From the IMG/VR virus record IMGVR_UViG_3300033571_013671, positions 1 through 63,740 of that record: DNA of 63,740 nt; one strand, given 5' to 3'. Under the pieces are notes generated by a model. That model had not been told where the DNA came from. It ran no database searches and saw only the letters and a program-made list of their open reading frames with translations. Positions 4,201 to 62,403 of the stretch are shown here, piece after piece. The stretch comes from a virus. Within the stretch, counting starts at the first letter, position 1; each line of letters opens with the position of its first letter. The translations under genes and the position numbers were made by a program.

Positions 4201-7200
4201 TTACTACAACATTCTTGCGAAATAGGATTACCGTTGGATAAAATAATACCATCGGTTGTTATTCTTATAGAATCTGCTGGGATGTCACATTTATTGAATG
4301 TAACAATATCAGTAGGTAATAAAACTTCTACCGCAGTTGTAGTATTATCTTTAGGTGGTAACGCACCTGAACCAGCAGTTTCCATTATAGAACTTCTAAA
4401 AGCGTAACAAGTACCTCTTTGGTATAGTTGTGGGTTAGTTCCTTGTATAGGTGTCCACTGACTACTATAATAAGAAGGATCCATAGTAGCACCAGCTGGT
4501 GTAGGTCCACTCTGAGACTGTATTAAATATTTATAACCATTTGCATAATCATATTCATAAGTACCTATAGATAATGTACATCCATATACTGTTGGTTGTC
4601 CACCTCCAGGTCCTTTACCACCAGAAGCTGCCGCTTGTCTTAGAACATCTTGTTGTTGTTCAGTATTTTTTTGTACAGTTTCTCTATTCTGAGTAGTTTG
4701 TTTTAATTGTGCATCTAACAAAGATTTTTCTGATTCTAAAGTACTAATTTGACTTTCATTTTTTGTTAAATTTATATTTAATTTAAGTTTTTGTGAATCA
4801 GTTAAAACTAAATTACCTGATTTATCAGTTATTTTTTCAGGATTAACATTTAATATTTCAGCAGTTTTATTAATAGTATTTTGAGTATCATTAATAGATA
4901 AATCAGATTTTTGTGTCGACTCATCAAAACTTATAAAATTGTTCGCATCTGTAGTTAAAGTATTTATTTTTTCTGTTACACTTTGAATTTGTTTTTCTAA
5001 TTCAGATACTAAAACCAAATTATTATCAAATTTAGCTTTAACTAATTGTTCATTTAATTGATTTTTAGTTATACATAAGTTTAATAAATCTGAATATATT
5101 AATTTTTGTTTTTCATTTTCCGCAATTTTAGAACTTACACAAGAATCATATTCTTTAGTTTTAGTTCCATCATTAGTTAATGTACCATACACTATACTAT
5201 TACAATAATTTTTATAATCAAAATTATTAATTTCATTAATTTTATTTTCGTATATACTACAATCTAAACTATTGTCTACATTGGTTATTGCTTTTTGTAT
5301 TATTAAATTTTCTGACTCTTTTTCTGAAATCGCATTGTTTACTTCTTGTAGTTTTAATCTTAAACTAGTTTCTTGTTCGGTATATATATCTGTTTGTTCT
5401 ACTTTTTGTTTTGTTAAAAAATTGAATTCTTTTGCTGCAACAACCTCTTTGTAAGGTTCTTCAAAAAAATCAACTCCTACTGCCTCAGCACATTTTAAAA
5501 CATTTTCAAGTGTCTTTCTTAATTCAGAATTTAATTTTTCGTAATTACTATAAATTTTACTCCATAATCCACATTCTAATGGCATCTGTAAAGAACATAC
5601 ATTCTGTGTGGTTATATAATTACCGTAATTAATTTCACATGGTTTAACATCAAAATTAATGTTATAACATGACCCTAAAACCTTTATTAAATCATTTTTT
5701 ATTGATTCGTATTCTTTTATGAACGTTAACATATCAGAATAATTAAAATCTAAAGAATTTAAAAACTCTAATGTAGGGCTATTAGACAATGTATTATAAT
5801 TTTGTGTAATAGTATTTACCCATAATTGATTTGATGAAGCCCATTCGTTAAAAGAAACTACATTACCCCCTATCCCAATACAACAATCAGTATTAGGTTC
5901 TAAAATATTAGTATTTTGCCATATAATATATTCTTCAGTTGGTTCTAAAATATCATTAAAATTAATCTCTAAATTTTTAGATTCTTCTTCTGAATTTGTA
6001 AATGCAACAAAATTTAAACAATTTATATTAGTTATTGTATTATCATATATAATCGCAGGAAAACAAGTTATGTTATCAGCACATTCTATTAAATTTTTCG
6101 CCTCATATTTTAACATATAATCAAAAGAAAAATCAATAGTACAACTACAATCATCTAATTCTGGTAACTTAAAACCTTTCCATTTTTCACTAGCAAAAAC
6201 AACTGAAACATTGTTAATTTCATCACAAGGAATCAAATTAGTGTCAATTGCTGCACTAAAAGTAGAATTTGGTGTAGTCGAATAATTACTATCACCATTA
6301 TAAGGTATTAGAGTATCACTACTATAATCAAATGTGAACAAACCAAACTGATATCCGTAATATTCGGCAATTTGTTTATATAAATCATTTAATGATTGAT
6401 CACTATACCAATCTAAAATAAAATTATTGTTATAGATTTTTGGTGTAAAACTTACTCTACCATATTCATCTATAGAAAAAACTTCCCAATTTTTAGGGTT
6501 CATTAATTCAGGATCCTGCAAAATAGAATATGGTAAAACTGCTAAAGATGTAGAATCAGAAACAACACCTTTAACTATTCTAGATTCGTTAAAACAATCC
6601 CAAAAAATTTCTGTAGAATTGTAATTATAAACATCTACTACAGGATTTTGTAACTTTTCATAACTTTTACTAGTTGTTTTATCTATGAAAGGAGTCGTAT
6701 AACTACTTTCAATTTTTATATCTTCAGGAGTATTAATTTTATTTTTTGGTGTACATACAATATAACTATTTTCTCTTGTATCTACAACATTTATAGTATC
6801 ACCTTTACTTTCGGTAAAAGATGTAGAATTAAATCTAGCTGTCTTTTTTGGGTCAGTTTTACTTTGGATTATTTCATAACCATAACCATACCAAGCACAA
6901 CATTCAGGACTACTCACAATAGATGTTGCATTACAACTAACCTCTACAAAAATTTGTTCAAAAGGTATTGTTGCTAAATTTCTACCTGTGTAGATGTAAG
7001 TTTCTATATATTCTTCTGCAGATAATCTTAAAAAAAAGTCTTGAAATGTTAAGTCTTTATAGATATATTGAAAACATCTATTAACTGTTGTTGTTATCTC
7101 TTCTGTGACAACTTTTTTTCTACTTACTGGTTGACTTGATTCCGATTTAATGGTTGATTGATTGAATGATATCTGAACAATATCTTTTGGCATTGTATTA

Positions 7201-9758
7201 TTATCCATACTAAATACCACATAACCATTTTCATCAACCCCTTGAGGTTTACCAACACAAGGTGCTAACTTAGAACAATATTCTGTAGTTCTACCATATT
7301 CATTAACATAAGAAACAAATTTTGCACCTTCATTATCTCTACAACAAGTAGGGAATTCATCAAAAGATACTTTTATTCCATCATCATTTGTATAATATAT
7401 GAAAGGACTACATTCAACTAAGTTTAAGTTATTACAACTATATTGTATTTTTTCTTTTTCTTTTTTATCTAAACAAATTTGTAAAGTTTTATTTATATCG
7501 CAATTTTCAGTAGCCGCCTCAGTTAAACAATTATTTTTAGAAATTTCATAATTATTTTTAATAACTTGCCATTCTGGCGAATAAGCTAAATATGGTTCTA
7601 GTTTAATTAATTCTAAGTACTCAAAATATGCTTGTTCTGCATCACAACACTGTTGTTGGAAAGTAGTACTACCGTCACTTTGTAACGGAGTTTCTATGAT
7701 ACTATAATTAATATTTAAACAATCGTTTATAGGTTGGTATCCATTTGTTTGTGGATTTAAAGTTAATTGTGTTGTATATATTTCTGAATTATTATCTATA
7801 CCATTAAAAATTCCATAATTATAATTTAAAAAATAATTTTGTACTAATGTATCTGCGGTAATGGTTACTGAAGGTACATCATTAAAATTAGGTATATAAC
7901 ATCTACTAAAATATTTTAAATATTCATTACCACCATCATATTTACCAATATGGGGATTATTACCATTTAAAACTGAAACAACATTTGATCCGTAAGTTTC
8001 TCTGTACCATCCACCTCCTTTTTGGAAATACATTTCAGTAAAAGAATTCTCAACTAATTCTCCAGTTTCAGGATTTATAAAATCAGTTATTACTAATTCA
8101 CCATTTGTAGGTGGTAAAGGAAAACCATTTTCGTCATATGGTATATTTTCTAAATTAACTTCACCTGTATATAAATAAAGGAGTTTTTTTATTTCTTCAA
8201 TATCTAATGGTTTGTCTACCATTACTATATATTCATTAAAATTAACTAAAGATTCTGGTGCCCCAATAAATCTAAATAAAAATTCAACTGCTTTTCTACT
8301 ACCTTTACTTTTCCATAACCAAGCCACATTTAAAATCAATCTTCTATATAATTCTATATCAATATCTGATTGAGTTAAATTGACTGAAGTACCGCTAAAT
8401 TGTCCTGCCCCATTACTAGGTAAAAATAATTTACTAAATGTTGTGTCATTAATAAAATTAATAGGTTCTAAACCTAACATATAACCTAAATCTTTAACTA
8501 AAGAATCTGGTATATTGTTTTGTTTGTTATATGTTACAACATGTGCAAATTTAATCCCATTGATGTATTTTTTAATGTAATCAAATTCTACACCATATAT
8601 TCTAAGTAATTTAGTTGCCTTTTCACCATTTAATACTAAATCATCTCCGTCCGCTCTAGGTATGGTATCAAAACTTGAAATTGCTTCTGTAGTATATTTT
8701 CTTACAATAATATCAGTTTTACTTTCATCTAAACCTTCACCTAATCTATTGATTGAATCTAAATAGGCTATATAAAAACTATCAAAAAAGTTTAAATTAT
8801 ATCCGTCTGCTAAAACAGGAAAATCCAAAACTGATTTTGATGTTAACAATACACCATCATCTGTATAATTTGAACTTATTACTTCAGATCTATATTTTGG
8901 ATATACGTCTCTATTTAATATATTTTTTTGTAAATCATTTAAACCAGTAAAAAATTTCTCTATTTCATCCTCATTTGGTTTTATGAAATAAGGTATAGAT
9001 GCATCAACATTATTAAATAAAAATGATAATTGTGGGATAAAAATTCCTGTTAGTTCAGGAAATGGATTACCTTCAACAACTATTTCTAAATTTGAATTTG
9101 TTTTTTGTGGTGCAGGAGTTATATTTTTTATTTTTCTACTTATTCCATTATGTTCTATAACATAAGAATCATATTTTAATGTAAAATTTCTTAATGGATT
9201 AGAAATATCAGTATCACTTACATATTGAGCATCGGTAGTGTATTTAATTACATATGGATTTATAAAGAAATTACTATTTACAGTAAACGTAGATTCATCT
9301 GCCTCTATATCATATACATAATTAGTTATGTTGTTACCCGTAACACTACCAACTTTATTGTCTACGTAAATTGCTGCTGGCCACTTTTCTTGTATTTCTA
9401 TTAAAGAAGAACGTACCAATTCTTTTGCAGAACCATACCAAATATAACTTAAAGGATTAGTTAAATCTAAATTTAATTTAGTTCTAATATTTTTTTGTAT
9501 GTCAAATTGAGTTGTTGCAGATGTTGCAATATCATCTAAAGTATAGAATTTAGATTTTGTACCTTGTTTAAATAAAATATCAGGTTTTGGATCTAAATTA
9601 ACTGATATAGAAAAATTACCATTAGTAAATAAAGTTGTACCCCCTTCACTAGTTAACTGAAATCCTACTAAATCTGGACTAAAATCCCTATATTCAATAT
9701 TATCGTTGAAAAATATCCTTTGAGCATATCCCGCAACTTTTATTCTCCTATTCGCCAT
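1230..9758 (-). CDS. Giant 2842-residue virion/baseplate-associated protein
   Basis: This is the longest gene in the window, a single frame of 2842 codons. Around residues 463-519 is a segment with LWKSKGSRKAVEFLFRFIGA, a pattern I associate with tail or baseplate proteins of marine and Bacteroidota phages. A long Gln/Glu/Lys-rich stretch at about 1450-1700 looks like coiled coil and is followed by a Gly-rich linker near 1715. Two tandem Cys-Cys repeats lie at about 1828-1920, and the C-terminal third has many Cys pairs plus a cluster with KCKGDCEYCGKTKKC. The gene ends a run of large virion genes downstream of gp25/gp6, 8 bases after the preceding gene, so I infer a distal baseplate or fibre-network component. 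No enzyme motif was recognised. The tape-measure role belongs to another gene (43626-45743). Confidence 0.75.
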   Translation of the reverse strand: MANRRIKVAGYAQRIFFNDNIEYRDFSPDLVGFQLTSEGGTTLFTNGNFSISVNLDPKPDILFKQGTKSKFYTLDDIATSATTQFDIQKNIRTKLNLDLTNPLSYIWYGSAKELVRSSLIEIQEKWPAAIYVDNKVGSVTGNNITNYVYDIEADESTFTVNSNFFINPYVIKYTTDAQYVSDTDISNPLRNFTLKYDSYVIEHNGISRKIKNITPAPQKTNSNLEIVVEGNPFPELTGIFIPQLSFLFNNVDASIPYFIKPNEDEIEKFFTGLNDLQKNILNRDVYPKYRSEVISSNYTDDGVLLTSKSVLDFPVLADGYNLNFFDSFYIAYLDSINRLGEGLDESKTDIIVRKYTTEAISSFDTIPRADGDDLVLNGEKATKLLRIYGVEFDYIKKYINGIKFAHVVTYNKQNNIPDSLVKDLGYMLGLEPINFINDTTFSKLFLPSNGAGQFSGTSVNLTQSDIDIELYRRLILNVAWLWKSKGSRKAVEFLFRFIGAPESLVNFNEYIVMVDKPLDIEEIKKLLYLYTGEVNLENIPYDENGFPLPPTNGELVITDFINPETGELVENSFTEMYFQKGGGWYRETYGSNVVSVLNGNNPHIGKYDGGNEYLKYFSRCYIPNFNDVPSVTITADTLVQNYFLNYNYGIFNGIDNNSEIYTTQLTLNPQTNGYQPINDCLNINYSIIETPLQSDGSTTFQQQCCDAEQAYFEYLELIKLEPYLAYSPEWQVIKNNYEISKNNCLTEAATENCDINKTLQICLDKKEKEKIQYSCNNLNLVECSPFIYYTNDDGIKVSFDEFPTCCRDNEGAKFVSYVNEYGRTTEYCSKLAPCVGKPQGVDENGYVVFSMDNNTMPKDIVQISFNQSTIKSESSQPVSRKKVVTEEITTTVNRCFQYIYKDLTFQDFFLRLSAEEYIETYIYTGRNLATIPFEQIFVEVSCNATSIVSSPECCAWYGYGYEIIQSKTDPKKTARFNSTSFTESKGDTINVVDTRENSYIVCTPKNKINTPEDIKIESSYTTPFIDKTTSKSYEKLQNPVVDVYNYNSTEIFWDCFNESRIVKGVVSDSTSLAVLPYSILQDPELMNPKNWEVFSIDEYGRVSFTPKIYNNNFILDWYSDQSLNDLYKQIAEYYGYQFGLFTFDYSSDTLIPYNGDSNYSTTPNSTFSAAIDTNLIPCDEINNVSVVFASEKWKGFKLPELDDCSCTIDFSFDYMLKYEAKNLIECADNITCFPAIIYDNTITNINCLNFVAFTNSEEESKNLEINFNDILEPTEEYIIWQNTNILEPNTDCCIGIGGNVVSFNEWASSNQLWVNTITQNYNTLSNSPTLEFLNSLDFNYSDMLTFIKEYESIKNDLIKVLGSCYNINFDVKPCEINYGNYITTQNVCSLQMPLECGLWSKIYSNYEKLNSELRKTLENVLKCAEAVGVDFFEEPYKEVVAAKEFNFLTKQKVEQTDIYTEQETSLRLKLQEVNNAISEKESENLIIQKAITNVDNSLDCSIYENKINEINNFDYKNYCNSIVYGTLTNDGTKTKEYDSCVSSKIAENEKQKLIYSDLLNLCITKNQLNEQLVKAKFDNNLVLVSELEKQIQSVTEKINTLTTDANNFISFDESTQKSDLSINDTQNTINKTAEILNVNPEKITDKSGNLVLTDSQKLKLNINLTKNESQISTLESEKSLLDAQLKQTTQNRETVQKNTEQQQDVLRQAAASGGKGPGGGQPTVYGCTLSIGTYEYDYANGYKYLIQSQSGPTPAGATMDPSYYSSQWTPIQGTNPQLYQRGTCYAFRSSIMETAGSGALPPKDNTTTAVEVLLPTDIVTFNKCDIPADSIRITTDGIILSNGNPISQECCSKEFLNFEASYINKQCIVVKTFCEISQNSLSITPEGIILSNGRPISEECCNRDVLNTEVTFIEKQCRVSRTNVSNCCNKELISLLNEYLKKVEGITLKIDEITKECYDKWYNTLIKNYSNYEQSNTTFYLDYLDDLKINFKLFVDNNNIDVVNAIDTSLTYLPYTQSVNPIWEFNPTSGYTGILLEGDEQLIAQIEDSIFNQLSSQNIPYNSDIFEPNWKTFKFRIPECVCDDLRRLYPNKEFFFSIEIENYECSVCLLVDNILVNVSDCKTQRILSINDCMVPQLSCVIDNKKSWVYYDGGVVKETIYPNGQCNTGSTTNYEIVKLKTPEERIWTDLEYRYTNYDVFHSDLILNVKNTSFSIDPAKSIECDVFNYWKNIDCNNCPTGCGEDNYIFQSSEDYIFQQINEDYIFQDQLSVLPFKFNGTINSSLFNGNYQLILDDTLTTGLPFSCETYTELLHNQIIELKNEYYLLTANYTEALDAGYYDLLEKGGSLSKFFIERNSCEGEIIVLNDTNGVNNLFGLIVEKPNGTLGFFETYVYTGTPLYVGGVEQELINGVSAQTFNQSNSITKECCNSISNLLNHKGTDGLGLDKSYHWSDSESLCYWRPINECSKCKGDCEYCGKTKKCISGQTSIETYNVCINPLDFLDFDPSTIKVKDVFDQLVLSNLIDAKSRQTISDYPLLRLFYELYLKASNCGSDLSGKFTYDTMFEFMDKIGDYWLDLLEQVVPATTIWEGCDNSGKIYRNTIFDQNKFKYKKYSLNFIDIDEDCPLSAKTDFSIGQQSIYSLVEQKPIYPTSDEINSIKNEIRNREIELAIAKQKLNILNGRLCSLNLQDLNTPNLDETINSVNSEITETNNLIETLNTILNNLFFELSELEKEYLEQQQNYLNNFMSCTGITQSLINAENKLCSYIPGTTAYERQRNFIAGLRDKYDKCIAKSNTLVTDYNTVFITQIYDSNEYEGNVTIIGDPDWEEGGPFYNKELIHNC
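3990..4280 (-). repeat. Tandem CC-containing protein repeat inside giant virion gene
   Basis: Two copies of about 45 residues lie side by side. Both follow the pattern I-T-x-[DE]-G-I-I-L-S-N-G-x-P-I-S-x-E-C-C, then a beta-rich stretch, then K-Q-C. The DNA copies (approximately 4146-4280 and 3990-4135) are diverged, so this is an old duplication. A third, degenerate CC follows (NCCNKELI). Confidence 0.7.
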
Positions 9759-55396: not shown

Positions 55397-58300
55397 TTAT
55401 TTTTTTATAACAATTCTTTTCTTTTTTGGGTTTTTAGAATCGGAAGTATCGTAAACAATAAAATTAATTTGTGGATATAATTTTTGTAATTCATTTTTTA
55501 TTAATTCTTCAATTGTCTTAACATTACTAACATCATCATCACTATATCCTACACTAATACCCTCAAAATTAGGATCATCTTTTATTTTTTCTATTTGTTT
55601 AATTACCCTATTAACAAAATCTTTAAACGCAATTTCCTTACCTTTTTCTGGTTTTGTACTACTTACATCTAAACCAAACTTATTTAAAAATTCTTCAGAT
55701 GATACTGGGTGATAATCTTGTAGAGTTAAATAATCATCTATTGAAACTCCATTTAGATTATTTTCCATTTCTTTTATTTCTGAATTAGTAAAAGTTTTAT
55801 TTATTAAAATTTTAATACCATCTTTAATCGCTTGTGGTGAATTAGATCTCGCAGTAATAATAGAAAAATCACTACCACTAATTAATGCCTCTTTAAAATC
55901 ATTATAACTAGGACCAAATTGATTATATCTGACTGCTTGCTCTACATCCTTTATAAACGCATTATAATCTCTAAAATCTTTAAAAGAATTTAAAATGTTA
56001 TTACCCACATATCTAAATTCTTTACCTATTTTATCTCTAACACTTCTAAATTGTTCTGTTGATACTGAAACTGGTACCCACATTAAACCATTTACACTAT
56101 ATTCTAAATGTATTCTTGTAGACATTTTAAGGATATTATCGTCCCAATCAAATGAGTAAGCCTTTCTAAATGATTCTACTAAGTAATGTTTTTTATAAAT
56201 AATCGATTCATTTTTAACTTCCTCTTTATTTTCTTCTTCTACATCATCTAATCCTGACATTATAAATGGTAAAAGTGCTGGATAACCTTTAGAAATTAAT
56301 TCATATGCTTGTCTATATAAATCTTTTTCAAGTTTCTTCGCTTGTTCTGGATATACATTTTTCCAATTCTGTTCTAATTTAGATAATACAGTAAAAAAAT
56401 CTTTAGGTATATTATTAACCCAACCATCTACACTATTTAATTCTTTTTGTAATTTTACCTCATCATTTACATTCTTTTTTAAAAATAAATCTATAAATTT
56501 TTTAAAGAAATTTTTTAAAATATTACTATTATCATCAAGATTCTTAGTATTAGGATTTATTTTACTCAAGTCTAAATTATTTTCATACCTTGCCTTTTCT
56601 ACATTAATTCCTGCTAACTTTTCAGATTTATTAGTACCTCTAAGATAATCCACTAAAAAAGTTGCAAATCCTTTATTTTTTTCTAATGTGCCTAATTCCA
56701 TCAAACTTTTAATGTTGGCAGCAAATTCTGCTTCAATTTCTTTAACATGACTCCAATAAGATAATTCTTCCGCAACTTTTTTGACAATATTATCTACTTC
56801 CTCAATATCTATATTATTATTAATAAATTGTAAAAGTTTTTCATCACTTAATCCTTCAGTTTTTGTTTTTATATTTTTATAATTATCATTAACATTTTCC
56901 CAATCTTTTATAAACCACCTTAATACTCTAGTTTTAACATCGTCACCATACATATTAATTATATTAGCATTACTAACAGTTTGTCCTTTTGGTTGAATTA
57001 TAAATTTTTCTGGTACTTCATTATTTTGTAATGCCCATTCCTCAAAATCATCCCTCCAAGAATAATCTTTACTGGTATCTATATTTTTTTCCACACCAAA
57101 TTTTCGTATTAATGTCTCAACATTATTTTCATCCGAATGCCACCAATCCCAAAAATGAACTGATGGTTTTTCACCTGGTATTACTTCATTTTTATAATAA
57201 TATTTAGTTCTTTTACCTGTTAAATAACCCCAAGCTTCTTTCCCACTTTGGAACCCTCCACTTTTATATGTCGCATAACTTTGATTACTTACTTTTTGAA
57301 CAACGTGTGTTAATTCATGATAAATCACATGAAAAATACTGTCTTTTAATTCTTCTAAATTTTTTGGTTTTCTGTAATTACTTATTGCGTCAGGATTAAT
57401 TATTACCCACTGACCCCAATTACCTTGTACATCATCAGCATACATCCTAACACCCAAAGGTACATCATATCTATAAACATATTTTTTTCTTAAATCAGGA
57501 TCCTTTAAAATTTTTTCAGATTTAATCCAATCTAAAATATATGGTCTATTACCACTTACATTTGGTGGATACATATGATTGGCGATAGGGAAAGTTTTTT
57601 CGTATTCATCTCTAAATAGATTCTCTAATCCATCATCATTAATTTTTGTATTATTAAACTGTTCAGGACCTTGTTTATTTAGTGTAAATTTTACATTTTC
57701 ACCATTAATATTTAATGTAACGTAAACAGGTTCACCAGTATTGGAATCAAAACCCCAATCCTTATCTAAACCATATTTTTTTAATGAAGCATCTATAATA
57801 TCATATTCATCTTTAGGGATATCAGATAATTTTACTCCAGCAACTTGTTCTACTGATTTTTTTTCTGGAGTTAACTTATCCAACTCTATAAAAAATTCTT
57901 CAGATGTTATTTTTTTATTTTTTAAATTATCAAATATTTCTTTATATTTTTCTTCCCCATGTATTTCTTTAAATTTTTTAACTTTTTCATCTAATAACTT
58001 TTTATATTGTATTATAGTATTATCTATTTCTAAATTAAAAACTTCATCTTGTGCCTTTAAAACTGATATTATAGATATTTGATTATCAGTTAATTTTTTT
58101 AATACATCATTAGGTAAATCGGTAATTTCATTAGTTACGTATTTAGTTAAAGTATCAACATTTAAATCGGAATTACTAAAAATATATTTTGTATAATCAC
58201 TAATTGTATCTTTCCATATTTTTTTACTATTATTGATTTCGTCAAGTTTAAACAATTTTTTTAAATTTAAATTATCATTTATAATTTTAAATTTGGTACT

Positions 58301-58486
58301 AAGTTCATCTAAGTTTTTTGTAAAATTAAATGATGGTAAAACGTCAGTATTTTTTATTAATGAGGTATTAACATTTTTAGCTGCGGCAATTACATCATCT
58401 AACCATTTTTGTTCAGATAAAATTGTTTTTTTGTTTAAAAAATATTTTAATTTGTTTTTTTCCGTTTGTGAAAGTGACAATTTCAT
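55397..58486 (-). CDS. Tagged virion protein with zinc-protease motif and HAD-like domain, 1029 aa
   Basis: The leader KLSLSQTEKNKLKYFLNKKT then ILSEQ carries the tag (LSE). Residues 30-330 are helical. HELTH at 390-394 is a zincin HExxH site in the helix FHVIYHELTHVV. KEIEAEFAANI near 582 fits a gluzincin third ligand. The C-terminal domain (about 775-1029) resembles HAD phosphatases: FDWDDNIL near 779-786 (motif I), SIITARS near 880 (motif II), KPEKGKEIAF (possible motif III Lys) and SVGYSDDD near 980 (motif IV). The combination is unusual. The gene is between tail tube and sheath. It may be packaged and act in the host or during maturation. Both activities are inferred from motifs. Confidence 0.7.
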   Translation of the reverse strand: MKLSLSQTEKNKLKYFLNKKTILSEQKWLDDVIAAAKNVNTSLIKNTDVLPSFNFTKNLDELSTKFKIINDNLNLKKLFKLDEINNSKKIWKDTISDYTKYIFSNSDLNVDTLTKYVTNEITDLPNDVLKKLTDNQISIISVLKAQDEVFNLEIDNTIIQYKKLLDEKVKKFKEIHGEEKYKEIFDNLKNKKITSEEFFIELDKLTPEKKSVEQVAGVKLSDIPKDEYDIIDASLKKYGLDKDWGFDSNTGEPVYVTLNINGENVKFTLNKQGPEQFNNTKINDDGLENLFRDEYEKTFPIANHMYPPNVSGNRPYILDWIKSEKILKDPDLRKKYVYRYDVPLGVRMYADDVQGNWGQWVIINPDAISNYRKPKNLEELKDSIFHVIYHELTHVVQKVSNQSYATYKSGGFQSGKEAWGYLTGKRTKYYYKNEVIPGEKPSVHFWDWWHSDENNVETLIRKFGVEKNIDTSKDYSWRDDFEEWALQNNEVPEKFIIQPKGQTVSNANIINMYGDDVKTRVLRWFIKDWENVNDNYKNIKTKTEGLSDEKLLQFINNNIDIEEVDNIVKKVAEELSYWSHVKEIEAEFAANIKSLMELGTLEKNKGFATFLVDYLRGTNKSEKLAGINVEKARYENNLDLSKINPNTKNLDDNSNILKNFFKKFIDLFLKKNVNDEVKLQKELNSVDGWVNNIPKDFFTVLSKLEQNWKNVYPEQAKKLEKDLYRQAYELISKGYPALLPFIMSGLDDVEEENKEEVKNESIIYKKHYLVESFRKAYSFDWDDNILKMSTRIHLEYSVNGLMWVPVSVSTEQFRSVRDKIGKEFRYVGNNILNSFKDFRDYNAFIKDVEQAVRYNQFGPSYNDFKEALISGSDFSIITARSNSPQAIKDGIKILINKTFTNSEIKEMENNLNGVSIDDYLTLQDYHPVSSEEFLNKFGLDVSSTKPEKGKEIAFKDFVNRVIKQIEKIKDDPNFEGISVGYSDDDVSNVKTIEELIKNELQKLYPQINFIVYDTSDSKNPKKKRIVIKK

Positions 58487-58558: not shown

Positions 58559-58921
58559 TTATCTTCTTCTGAATTTTTTATAACTTTCAGGCATTCTATT
58601 TCTTAACCTTCTTTGTCTCTCCCCTCCAAATTCTGAGTCTTCCCTATGTTTTCCCATATTTTGATCATACCATTTACGATGAACATCTTTCAATCCACTA
58701 TAATCGTCATCGTCTTCTTCATAATCAGGGGATGGTGCATCAAATCTAGGGTCATATTCCTTTTCACCCCACTCTTCGCCTTCTTCATAATCAGGAGATG
58801 GTGCATAAAATCTAGGGTCATACTCCCCTCTATCGTCCATACCACCCATATCTTCTTTAATAACTCGTCTTACGATTCTTCTTAAATCTGATTCTGTTAA
58901 TCTAACTACTCTTTTTTTCAT
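58559..58921 (-). CDS. Tagged acidic repeat protein, 120 aa
   Basis: The leader MKKRVVRLTESDLRRIVRRV then IKED is the clearest tag (IKE). Two 15-residue repeats follow (EYDPRF[YD]APSPDYEE), then an Asp-rich stretch and a basic C-terminus (RRLRNRMPESYKKFRRR). The protein is probably disordered. The acidic middle and basic end recall internal DNA-associated virion proteins. It is 5 bases after the 94-residue gene. Confidence 0.65.
   Translation of the reverse strand: MKKRVVRLTESDLRRIVRRVIKEDMGGMDDRGEYDPRFYAPSPDYEEGEEWGEKEYDPRFDAPSPDYEEDDDDYSGLKDVHRKWYDQNMGKHREDSEFGGERQRRLRNRMPESYKKFRRR
58715..58825 (-). repeat. Two diverged 45-bp repeats coding EYDPRFxAPSPDYEE
   Basis: Copies span 58715-58759 and 58781-58825, with a few base differences. 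Confidence 0.8.
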
Positions 58922-58926
58922 AATAT

Positions 58927-59211
58927 TTAACTTTTAATTGGTGAATTTGATTTATCTTTAAGACAATTTAATGCTGCAATTGCTTTAGTTCCTACACCAA
59001 ATGGATCATTAATAACCATTTTACCAACTTCTTTAAGACACTCTTCAGCGTCACCACTTAAACAAGATGCTGGTGGTTTAATACCTGCTTCACTACAACA
59101 TACAACTAAATCATTTTTAGGATCTTCATTTTCCTTTAATAATTTTTTTACTATTCTTTTCATATCAGTCTCAGACAAAGTAATAGTTTTCCCGTTTTTT
59201 CTAATTTTCAT
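58927..59211 (-). CDS. Tagged small Cys protein, 94 aa
   Basis: The leader TITLSETDMKRIVKKLLKEN is a tag (LKE) closely matching that of the 120-residue protein. The mature part has four Cys (CCSEAG, SCLSG, EECLKE, LNCLKDK) that could form disulfides. It is encoded directly after the sheath gene. Unknown function; a small packaged or secreted-like factor is possible. Confidence 0.6.
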   Translation of the reverse strand: MKIRKNGKTITLSETDMKRIVKKLLKENEDPKNDLVVCCSEAGIKPPASCLSGDAEECLKEVGKMVINDPFGVGTKAIAALNCLKDKSNSPIKS

Positions 59212-59244: not shown

Positions 59245-62100
59245 TTAAATATCGTCAAAACTTGCTCCTGTGTTAGTAATGTTAAATTCTATTGAAATAA
59301 ATTCTAACGACCTTGTAGGTTTAATAAAGATTCTACCATTTAATTCATTTCTATCGATAGATTCTGGAGTATCATCTAATGTTACTCTAAAGTCTGTTAA
59401 ACCTCTTTCTTTTCTAATATTATCTAATATTGGGTTAACTAAGCTTAAGAACTGATTTCTTACAACGTCATCATTTTGTTCAAATAATAGTCTGATTGAT
59501 ACTGCTGAAATAAGTTTTCTAGCTTGTAACAACAATCTTCTAACATTAATTCTATTAAGTGCGGTTTCTTTAACTTGTAATGTTTTATTACCAAAAATAA
59601 CTACACCTACATCAGAGAAAGTTGCCATAGGGTTAATTCTTCCCTCATATAAATCATCTCTATCATCTAATTTAAGTTTAACTCTAGCTTTTATTGCTGT
59701 TGTTGTACCTCTGTTTAAACCTGCTGCTGCGAACCAAGGGAAAGCAACATTATCTGTTAAAGCGATGTTTCTAACAACCTCAACTGTAGGAGGTAACCAA
59801 ACGTATCTATTGTTTTCAGTATCATTCATTTGTAACCAAGGCCAATATGTGGCAGAATAGTTAGAATCAATTCCAGAATCCTCAACAATATCTACTGCCT
59901 CACCAGGAGTTAATACTACACCATCCGCATCAACGTCAGGAGTTGTTACAATATAAAGTGAATCCGCTCTATCCGTTTCAATAACGTCAACCGCATTTTC
60001 AATTAAACTTATGTTATCCCTTAAATCTATACCTGGTGTTGCAAATACATTTATATTAACCGCCTCAGGATTATTAAATGTATATATACCATTTAAGTAT
60101 GCGTAATAGTCAGAAGTGATACCATCATCACCTTCAGTTGTTACAAATGTATTAAATAAACCTTTAGAAGTACCTAAAGAACCTTTAGTTCCATTTTTAG
60201 TATAACTATCACCATTAGTTCTTTTAGTCCTATATTCGTCCCATCCATCCCATCCACCGTAAGGTGCAAAAGTGAATTTACGAGCTGATAATTTTTCATA
60301 TGGACCATTTATTAATCCTGCGTCAGTAGTAAATGCTGAAACACCAACTTGTAATGTAGGAACATAACTATTACTACCTAATTCTATCATAGCACCTTGT
60401 GCATTTTTATCTAAGTGGAAACCTGCAGTTTTTCCTGTGTATTCACCATTATTAACTGCATTTACCCCCATATAATTAAAGAAATCTTGATCCACACCAA
60501 TCTCACTATTTAAACCTAAATAAGTTTTTCTCAATTTAGATGTATTAAAATCGGTATATTTAGTTTTATATTCAATTTTTGGTGGTAGAGCAGTTCTATT
60601 AGAACCAATATATGTTCTATTAAGAACCCCCTCAAAACCAGCAGGGAAATGGTTACCTAAATCTGGATCCGTATCATCCCACAATTCAACCATAACATAT
60701 TTACTTCTAAGTGGGAATTCTCCGTTTGTAGTACCTATTTTTCTAGCTATAAATCCAACTGAATTACTATCCATAGAAAGTGAAGAGAATTTCTCTACAA
60801 TATTAGGATTTGCATCAGTATCATTAAATTTTCTAATGATTAAATCAAAAGTTTTATTATCTGGTTGGATGTTTAAAATTGAAAATTTTACGTCTTGATT
60901 AGCCGCATTACCATCAGATATTGTTACTAATCTAAATAATCTCTGTAATGTATTACCCACACCCGTACCTTTTAATTCTGAAAGAACCCAAGGAGATACC
61001 GCAGTTTTCCAACCTTCTAAATAGTTATTTAAATTATTTGTTGTTGTTGAACCTATATTAACAAATGAAGTATCTAACCCTCTTACTTTTTTAGCTGAAA
61101 TTAAATCTTCTAATACGTTAGTATAAATTTCTTCTACCCAAAGTTCAGTTTCTTTATCTTGTGTAGACTGACCAAATACTCTAGGTAAGAAATTCTTTTT
61201 AGTCCTATCCATAGAAACTTCATAGTTAAAATTAACTCCATTATATGTTACACCTGAAATATTAAAAGAAGCTAATGAATTTAATGGTAAATTAGAAGTA
61301 TTAGTCATTAAAGTGTCTGTAACACCAGTAACATCGTATGTTAAATTCTCTAATCCATCGTAAGAACCTCTAGATCTTAATGTTGCTATAACACTACCGT
61401 CAACATCTGTGTAACAATTTGCGGTATAACTAACGACAGTACCACTAGTTGTACCAGTTACAAATCCAGTAGTTGCACCACTACCTTTAGATACAACAGT
61501 CATATCAAAAGTTGCTCCACTAAAGTTACATCCAGTTTTTACATAAAGAGGTGAAGTAATTGATATAGTACCTCCAGTATTTAAAATACCTATATTATTA
61601 AATAAAGTATTAATTTGTCCATCATTATAAAGTGCGTTTAAATTTGCGTCATTAAATGTTAATGAAGTAGGAATTCCGTTAACGCTACTAGCTGAATAAG
61701 TTAACAATACTGGATATGATGTTGTATTTGTAATACCCGTTGTGGAAGGATCTTCTGAAGAATCCAAAGTGATACACCACGCATTACCTGCTTTATAACC
61801 TGACAAACCTAATACTCTACTCACATAAAGTTGATTTGTTTGTGTTAAATAAGATTTTGCTATGTAATTAAGTTCATATTTATTGAAACCATTGGCTTTA
61901 AATTTTTCGGGATTTAATCCACCAAAGTAACTAATAAATTCATCGTAATTAGAAATGAAAACTGGTTCGAAAGCTGGTCCTTTAGGTGTCTCACCCAATA
62001 ATCCCAACGTAGTAACCCCAACTTGTCTAGTTACGAATGTTAAGTCTTTTTCTGAAGTGAACACTCCAGGACTCACAAAAATTCTGTCTGTTGATGCCAT
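59245..62100 (-). CDS. Contractile tail sheath protein, gp18-like, 951 aa
   Basis: The N-terminus MASTDRIFVSPGVFTSEKDL then ITTLGLLGETPKGPAF-like and YFGG segments are the sheath family start. The C-terminus holds WPWLQMNDTENNRYVWLPPT, NVAFPWFAAAGLNRG, INPMATFSDVGVVIFGNKTL and INVRRLLLQARKLISAVS, all hallmark sheath blocks. At 951 residues it is about 290 longer than T4 gp18 (659). The extra sequence lies in the middle (roughly 130-560) and likely forms outward-facing domains. The leader has a palindrome-containing promoter region. Confidence 0.92.
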   Translation of the reverse strand: MASTDRIFVSPGVFTSEKDLTFVTRQVGVTTLGLLGETPKGPAFEPVFISNYDEFISYFGGLNPEKFKANGFNKYELNYIAKSYLTQTNQLYVSRVLGLSGYKAGNAWCITLDSSEDPSTTGITNTTSYPVLLTYSASSVNGIPTSLTFNDANLNALYNDGQINTLFNNIGILNTGGTISITSPLYVKTGCNFSGATFDMTVVSKGSGATTGFVTGTTSGTVVSYTANCYTDVDGSVIATLRSRGSYDGLENLTYDVTGVTDTLMTNTSNLPLNSLASFNISGVTYNGVNFNYEVSMDRTKKNFLPRVFGQSTQDKETELWVEEIYTNVLEDLISAKKVRGLDTSFVNIGSTTTNNLNNYLEGWKTAVSPWVLSELKGTGVGNTLQRLFRLVTISDGNAANQDVKFSILNIQPDNKTFDLIIRKFNDTDANPNIVEKFSSLSMDSNSVGFIARKIGTTNGEFPLRSKYVMVELWDDTDPDLGNHFPAGFEGVLNRTYIGSNRTALPPKIEYKTKYTDFNTSKLRKTYLGLNSEIGVDQDFFNYMGVNAVNNGEYTGKTAGFHLDKNAQGAMIELGSNSYVPTLQVGVSAFTTDAGLINGPYEKLSARKFTFAPYGGWDGWDEYRTKRTNGDSYTKNGTKGSLGTSKGLFNTFVTTEGDDGITSDYYAYLNGIYTFNNPEAVNINVFATPGIDLRDNISLIENAVDVIETDRADSLYIVTTPDVDADGVVLTPGEAVDIVEDSGIDSNYSATYWPWLQMNDTENNRYVWLPPTVEVVRNIALTDNVAFPWFAAAGLNRGTTTAIKARVKLKLDDRDDLYEGRINPMATFSDVGVVIFGNKTLQVKETALNRINVRRLLLQARKLISAVSIRLLFEQNDDVVRNQFLSLVNPILDNIRKERGLTDFRVTLDDTPESIDRNELNGRIFIKPTRSLEFISIEFNITNTGASFDDI

Positions 62101-62142
62101 TTAATTTATTTTTTTAGTTATTATTTATTATTTTCTTTTAAT

Positions 62143-62151
62143 ATAAATATA
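62143..62151 (-). promoter_or_regulatory. ATATTTAT element in sheath leader
   Basis: The coding strand reads GTATATTTATATTAAAAG, 42 nt before ATG 62100. It overlaps the ACCAGTATATTT sequence also found at 43546-43557. Confidence 0.4.
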
Positions 62152-62165
62152 CTGGTTTTTTTGAA

Positions 62166-62193
62166 AAAATATTTTTTGTGTTATATAACACAA
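62166..62193 (-). promoter_or_regulatory. Candidate sheath promoter overlapping palindrome
   Basis: On the minus strand TTGTGT (62193-62188), 16 bp, TATTTT (62171-62166). The start would fall close to the ACCAGTATATTT motif, as at 43565. The -35 box lies inside the palindrome. Confidence 0.45.
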
Positions 62194-62194
62194 A
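62175..62194. promoter_or_regulatory. Perfect 20-bp palindrome, candidate operator
   Basis: TTTGTGTTATATAACACAAA is its own reverse complement. It lies in the intergenic region between the sheath start and the small DNA-binding gene. Confidence 0.65.
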
Positions 62195-62197
62195 TTT

Positions 62198-62217
62198 AGT
62201 ATGAGTTTTATCATACT
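62198..62217. promoter_or_regulatory. Inverted repeat AGTATGA...TCATACT
   Basis: 7-bp arms separated by 6 bases. It overlaps a rightward TACTTTTG (62214-62221), which fits the Bacteroidota -7 element TAnnTTTG and would start the small gene's message. No -33 TTTG is found at 19 bp. Confidence 0.5.
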
Positions 62218-62244
62218 TTTGACATACTTATAATAAAAAATGTT

Positions 62245-62403
62245 ATGAAAAGGGAAAATAATTTAAAAATAACTCCTCAGACACATAAAATATTAAAAGA
62301 TTATTGTGAGAAAAACGGACTTAAAATGTTCGCATTTGTTGAGAAATTAATAAAAGAAAAATGTAAGACTAAAACAGATATATATGGTGATGAGGTAAAT
62401 TAA
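62245..62403 (+). CDS. Small ribbon-helix-helix-like regulator, 52 aa
   Basis: ATG at 62245, stop at 62401-62403. The sequence has a beta strand (NNLKITPQ), then helix (THKILKDYCEKNG) and helix (KMFAFVEKLIKEKC), the Arc/CopG ribbon-helix-helix layout of dimeric repressors. It is one of only two rightward genes and faces the sheath gene across a 20-bp palindrome and an inverted repeat, so I infer self-regulation and perhaps control of late genes. Its stop overlaps that of the converging minus-strand gene in the tetranucleotide TTAA (62400-62403). It encodes a short protein, below many gene-finding limits. Confidence 0.7.
   Translation: MKRENNLKITPQTHKILKDYCEKNGLKMFAFVEKLIKEKCKTKTDIYGDEVN

Follow-up and report, generated by a model that had tools for sequence, protein, structure and literature searches.

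Between a tail sheath gene and a divergent gene for a 52-residue protein lies a short control region that recurs in a large group of uncultured contractile-tailed phages, and we consider it probable, from comparison of the sequences, that the small protein acts there as an Arc/CopG-type autorepressor through a set of TCATACT-like heptads laid over its own promoter. This reading builds on matches to promoters, on a heptad array that overlaps the promoter of the small gene, on the conservation of these elements and on the joint absence of array and gene; from them we infer binding, repression and cooperativity by the 52-residue protein. The window, i.e. the whole stretch of DNA analysed, covers positions 1-63,740 of the IMG/VR record IMGVR_UViG_3300033571_013671 (63,740 bases, 27% G+C) and includes a cluster of structural genes reading nearly all leftward; neither a tRNA nor a known RNA family was detected in it. 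With gene starts set by a simple longest-ORF rule, the gap between the sheath gene and the small ORF is 144 bp, and to the right of the small ORF lies a leftward ORF, the end of which overlaps its stop (features in Table 1).

Table 1. Coordinates of the features of the control region and its two flanking genes in the window.
Feature	Position	Strand	Basis
Tail sheath gene, 951 aa, divergent partner of the 52-aa gene	59245..62100	-	phrog_23, E 3e-59; PF17482, E 1.4e-7
Box ATATTTAT of the predicted late-type promoter reading leftward into the sheath gene; start predicted around 62138	62143..62150	-	matrix rank; conservation
T-block TTTTTT upstream of the sheath promoter box	62164..62169	-	T enrichment; conserved block
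Perfect 20-bp palindrome	62175..62194	.	dyad; fixed place and changing sequence in relatives
Heptad 1, AGTATGA, reverse	62198..62204	-	repeat search; array comparison
Heptad 2, TCATACT, 13 bp from heptad 1	62211..62217	+	repeat search; array comparison
Heptad 3, ACATACT, one mismatch, 11 bp from heptad 2	62222..62228	+	overlaps the rightward promoter box
Box ATACTTAT of the predicted late-type promoter reading rightward into the 52-aa gene; start predicted around 62236	62224..62231	+	matrix rank
Gene of the 52-aa RHH-type protein, presumed autorepressor	62245..62403	+	family matches; invariant columns; dN/dS

A search of the viral collection with the 52-residue protein gave 295 related stretches; 80 of these were retrieved, and each has a divergent sheath gene upstream. 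All scans together gave 306 loci, with both genes in divergent orientation in 291 and the sheath gene alone in 15; this count includes the window itself and contigs that came up more than once, and the scans overlap, so that 306 loci are not 306 phages. The only scan independent of the small gene was the one made with a distant sheath as query (80 loci): 65 loci carry the divergent small gene, four lack it (L314, L333, L355 and L359) and 11 are undecidable, the sheath start being at most 199 bp from the contig end, which gives 65 of 69 testable loci. Purifying selection acts on the small ORF: among 125 coding sequences, the 1,695 unsaturated pairs give a median dN/dS of 0.154. The conservation in relatives that an earlier first-pass annotation of this DNA had expected of it is borne out by this value and by the 65 divergent copies among the 80 sheath-query loci. 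When identical cases were merged into 144 distinct regions (distinct combinations of region and protein), the distance from the sheath start to the small gene start was 131-173 bp in 137 of them. The gene to the right of the small gene is convergent in 115 of 122 loci, the other 22 of the 144 being too short to call, so the small gene usually stands alone, an island of one gene set against the direction of its neighbours. Among more distant sheaths, that of Microcystis phage Mel-JY01 has no such gene, its upstream gene being co-directional and about 21 bp off, and for the LR756508 sheath none was found in the upstream stretch examined; a search for cultured relatives of the small gene gave no match in 50,697 phage records. 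A like layout occurs on a 51-kb contig (L366, QCKH01000012.1) titled as the Prochlorococcus single-cell genome AG-409-L21, a title in conflict with the Bacteroidota-like promoters of these phages, possibly because a phage was co-sorted.

The 52-residue protein likely belongs to the ribbon-helix-helix (RHH) superfamily, as judged from its family matches. All 71 members of the family match both PF10723 and phrog_582 ('Arc-like repressor') at E ≤0.1, weakly (best E values 0.00039 and 1.9e-5, respectively), and seven of the 71 match Omega_Repress at the same threshold; the protein of the window itself scores 17.8 bits against PF10723, below the cut-off of 21. The alignment of the 71 members (52 columns) has 17 invariant positions, including R3, N6 and K8 near the N-terminus, the part in which RHH (MetJ/Arc) proteins have their DNA-reading strand. 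The fold of that superfamily is strand-helix-helix, and its dimers contact DNA sequence-specifically through a ribbon of two strands. An AlphaFold monomer model (mean pLDDT 71.5) contains, at moderate confidence, helices at residues 11-24 and 29-39 and no strand, with residues 2-6 at low confidence; a Foldseek search returned nothing significant, and a sequence search of solved structures did not settle the fold either. Of the original description as an RHH gene, the conserved ORF thus stands and the RHH match is weak but consistent. Residue 4 and the third base of heptad 2 are concordant in 101 of 118 cases, a figure that rests on five changes in the tree and is not significant.

The repeat AGTATGA-N6-TCATACT, reported exactly at first pass, is the left part of a longer array; that listing had the first two units and missed the third. 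Taken by itself, AGTATGA-GTTTTA-TCATACT is unremarkable (12 such repeats seen in the window against 9.45 expected, for perfect arms of at least 7 bases and a 6-base loop), and it is significant only because it is conserved in relatives. At least two heptads with at most one mismatch are found in 143 of the 144 distinct regions, as compared with 0.43 per shuffled region, and these 143 have two to four units. Their spacing is constrained: a distance of 11 bp separates the units of 107 of the 114 forward pairs and of three of the seven reverse pairs, and all but one of the 128 reverse-forward pairs stand 13 or 24 bp apart. Units have been gained, lost and flipped among relatives, so that some arrays consist of three forward units and others (L054, L068 and L159) have the middle heptad inverted. 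The fifth base of heptad 3 is C in 87% of 135 aligned rows, at a place where the promoter consensus has T (of 142 rows, seven are listed without an anchor, and others of odd length were dropped). In the window and three larger relatives (G001, G003 and G004), heptad pairs with a total mismatch of at most one occur at this locus only, plus one duplicated cassette of G001; as the heptad is mirror-symmetric, a reversed-sequence control for such pairs is void. None of the four untruncated loci without the small gene has such a heptad pair within 400 bp, and all four retain a ATAAATAT box upstream of the sheath gene. The strongest sign that array and protein form a pair is this joint absence with retention of the box, which also indicates that the sheath promoter can do without both. 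The operator of the 52-residue protein is therefore likely to be the heptad array rather than the palindrome.

Two promoter classes emerged when octamers were counted in front of genes of the window and the same three relatives. One class has the form TTGG-N19-TATATTTG (153 upstream regions) and the other the form T-block-N12-ATATTTAT (165 upstream regions), with T enriched at -16 to -14 relative to ATATTTAT and a [G/C]AAAA block conserved in the intergenic alignment at the T-block of the sheath promoter. ATATTTAT is an enriched sense-strand octamer (123 occurrences against 41 on the opposite strand), and its class was named 'late' because it precedes the structural genes of the window, late timing being presumed from this position. 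Because the present locus had been part of the first late matrix, a second was trained on two other genomes, minus any upstream region with heptads; among 127,418 window positions, this independent matrix placed the sheath promoter (62150, -), which had ranked 2 with the first matrix, at rank 5 and the promoter of the small gene (62224, +) at rank 10. The two promoters diverge and are 74 bp apart, and ATAAATA is present in all 144 distinct regions. The claim that promoter-like elements run in both directions is supported, in the form of two predicted late-type promoters; a leftward -35 inside the palindrome, also claimed, was not found, as the best leftward T-block is just outside it and a generic sigma-70 scan places a rightward, not a leftward, first hexamer there. 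Promoter matrix scoring rejected the early class as the source of either start. Box ends peak 4 bases before the start codon in 21 of the 153 and 19 of the 165 upstream regions, a hint of leaderless transcripts.

The sigma-ABfr promoters of Bacteroidota, in the portion of PMC7366714 that describes them, have a -7 element TAnnTTTG and a -33 element TTTG, a pattern to which the TTGG-N19-TATATTTG class is close; neither promoter of the present region fits that class best. As the other promoter class of these phages, it points to Bacteroidota hosts, by resemblance of sequence. Matches to the sigma-70 family number two to four in each of five larger genomes, and the window record has none. The late promoter of phage T4 is TATAAATA, and the likeness here is a short A/T-only box before structural genes; the sense-strand box of the present phages is roughly the complement of TATAAATA and has a T-block upstream. 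A T4-type late promoter was accordingly rejected, TATAAATA not being the box on the sense strand and ATATTTAT being enriched instead.

The palindrome, TTTGTGTTATATAACACAAA, is exact over 20 bp, as had been noted at first pass. Perfect palindromes of at least 20 bp are expected 0.3 times per window in first-order Markov copies and two were seen, the other being pure A/T; folded as single-stranded DNA, the present one gives -5.8 kcal/mol (z -3.46). On a tree of 142 sheaths, a dyad is present in most clades and missing from a clade of 58 rows (with two short A/T-rich exceptions) and from some small groups, so that the conserved palindromes expected beside the gene in relatives are only partly there. 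Compared with shuffles, the dyad reaches p 0.01 in 42 of 82 rows and p 0.05 in 58 of 82 outside this clade, against one and two of 52 inside it; eight of the 142 rows were dropped for want of an anchor, and L004 and L221 scored poorly despite visible palindromes, the slice being too short. In 41 of the 42 strong rows the dyad centre is 13-14.5 bp from the array, and the arms are of 25 distinct kinds with loops of 0-4 bases. This spread over the tree, at a fixed distance and with many arms, means that the symmetry is old and fixed in place and that the bases are not. Loci L137 and L202 show an inverted spacer (GGAGTA-TTC-TACTCC versus GGAGTA-GAA-TACTCC). Many members of the 58-row clade (e.g. 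L069, L245 and L319) share, in the absence of the palindrome, a stretch like AAAAAGATATATTT before the array. An intrinsic terminator was rejected, as no G+C-rich stem with a T run occurs in 62050-62300 and the palindrome runs from T-rich to A-rich, the opposite of most intergenic hairpins of these phages. The site of a multi-target factor was also rejected: neither the window nor G003 has the palindrome core a second time, and the core ATGGT of G004 has eight matches there, with the full palindrome only at this locus.

In the mechanism that we propose, one late-type promoter would drive the sheath gene leftward and a second one the RHH protein rightward. Dimers of the protein would bind the heptads in either orientation, with direct units about one helical turn apart, and the bound dimers would cover and repress the small gene's own promoter, so that the protein would limit its own expression. 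Effects on the sheath gene, if any, would be indirect, the array being some 60-90 bp upstream of the predicted sheath start. The first-pass annotation had pictured an autoregulated switch that could gate the late tail operon; divergence is observed and autoregulation is probable, whereas the operator would be the array, with the perfect palindrome as a separate element. A 52-residue switch that gates the sheath and tail operon with the palindrome as its operator appears quite improbable to us: the palindrome does adjoin the T-block of the sheath promoter and keeps its distance to the array, but its bases vary while heptads and protein are nearly constant, which argues against this protein reading it, the 58-row clade keeps gene and array without it, and the sheath promoter box is present also where gene and array are absent. 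Gating was not supported in its direct form, since the heptads lie over the promoter of the small gene and not over that of the sheath gene; as an indirect effect it is possible, and the position of the array gives it no support. It is also rather unlikely that the bound array has a dual role, repressing its own gene and raising or lowering sheath transcription from upstream, for instance by polymerase contact or by shaping of the DNA between the two promoters. The near-constant pairing of the two genes and their narrow range of start-to-start distances speak for such a role, as does a second cassette before another structural-cluster gene in one genome, but four loci manage without gene and array and the sheath promoter of the window is free of heptad overlap.

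Autorepression through the heptads would work like that of Arc/CopG-type proteins with an Omega-like operator. With the former (PHROG 582 and 3180, 'Arc-like repressor'; Pfam PF10723, RepB-RCR_reg) the small protein shares its size, family matches, two predicted helices after an N-terminal stretch and a likely operator over its own promoter; the matches are weak, and the present case differs in its TCATACT array with 11-bp spacing, its late-type promoter and its fixed place beside a tail sheath gene. The section of PMC9499535 devoted to Omega (ParB) of plasmid pSM19035 describes an RHH protein whose sites are non-palindromic 7-bp repeats in direct or inverted orientation; these overlap promoters, among them the one of the Omega gene itself. 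The heptads over the small gene's promoter resemble this, as do the few Omega_Repress matches, and a partition pair of the ParB(Omega)/parS kind, rather than mainly a transcription switch, has nevertheless the barest likelihood: the Omega repeats as given there are consecutive and number seven to ten per site, whereas the present ones are of another sequence, number two to four and are spaced by 11, 13 or 24 bp, which also sets aside the Omega heptad system proper, and the left-flanking genes are structural. For the palindrome itself, upkeep may be by selection, mutation or both. There is a real, if less than even, prospect that it is functionless as a dyad and owes its symmetry to template switching between the inverted-repeat arms in replication, which would both make and repair it: the arms change together, and the L137/L202 pattern matches the signature given in PMC8604942, in which arms are homogenised and the spacer is inverted; PMC8794818 describes hairpin upkeep by this route. 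Template switching alone leaves the constant place of the dyad over deep sheath divergence unexplained. That the palindrome is instead a shape-read regulatory element between divergent late-type promoters, with selection keeping the symmetry while the sequence turns over, is a doubtful reading, and its ability to form a hairpin or cruciform for this purpose is no more assured; if true, it would respond to supercoiling and insulate or activate late transcription of the phage. A dyad that keeps its symmetry and changes its sequence is in either event a good case for comparing selection on DNA shape with template-switch mutation.

With autorepression through the heptads as the preferred reading, the region offers a testable autoregulator and putative operator beside a tail sheath gene, and the likely late promoter of these phages is defined. 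Among papers on RHH or Arc-like proteins together with tail sheath or late genes, in a collection without preprints and without most subscription journals, none describes this arrangement as judged from title and opening of the abstract.

Several further features were observed in the window and its relatives. L026 has the cassette a second time (late box, array and small gene), at about 7150-7460 (G001, from 203345 onward), where it precedes a 567-aa leftward gene of the structural cluster; its array is one 11-bp unit shorter than that of the first copy, and its control DNA is near-identical to the first while the protein is different. Partial extra matches to the small gene, which look like remnants or duplicates, occur in L214 (3361) and L222 (3364), in both inside a long sheath-gene gap, and in L077 (6222, adjoining a patatin-like ORF). 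In the 353-kb record G003, one perfect 48-bp palindrome stands at both ends (L097 1-48 and the end of L114), perhaps the mark of a circular or terminally repeated genome. To the left of the sheath gene, ORFs 58559-58921 and 58927-59211 encode adjoining small proteins with a common N-terminal motif (LTESDLRRIVRRVIKE / LSETDMKRIVKKLLKE), which is also found in two adjoining genes of G001 and is absent from G003 and G004. The 1029-aa ORF at 55397-58486 contains HELTH, which we take to be a metalloprotease-like motif, and near its C-terminus FDWDDNIL, the sequence with which a separate 273-aa ORF opens in L366.
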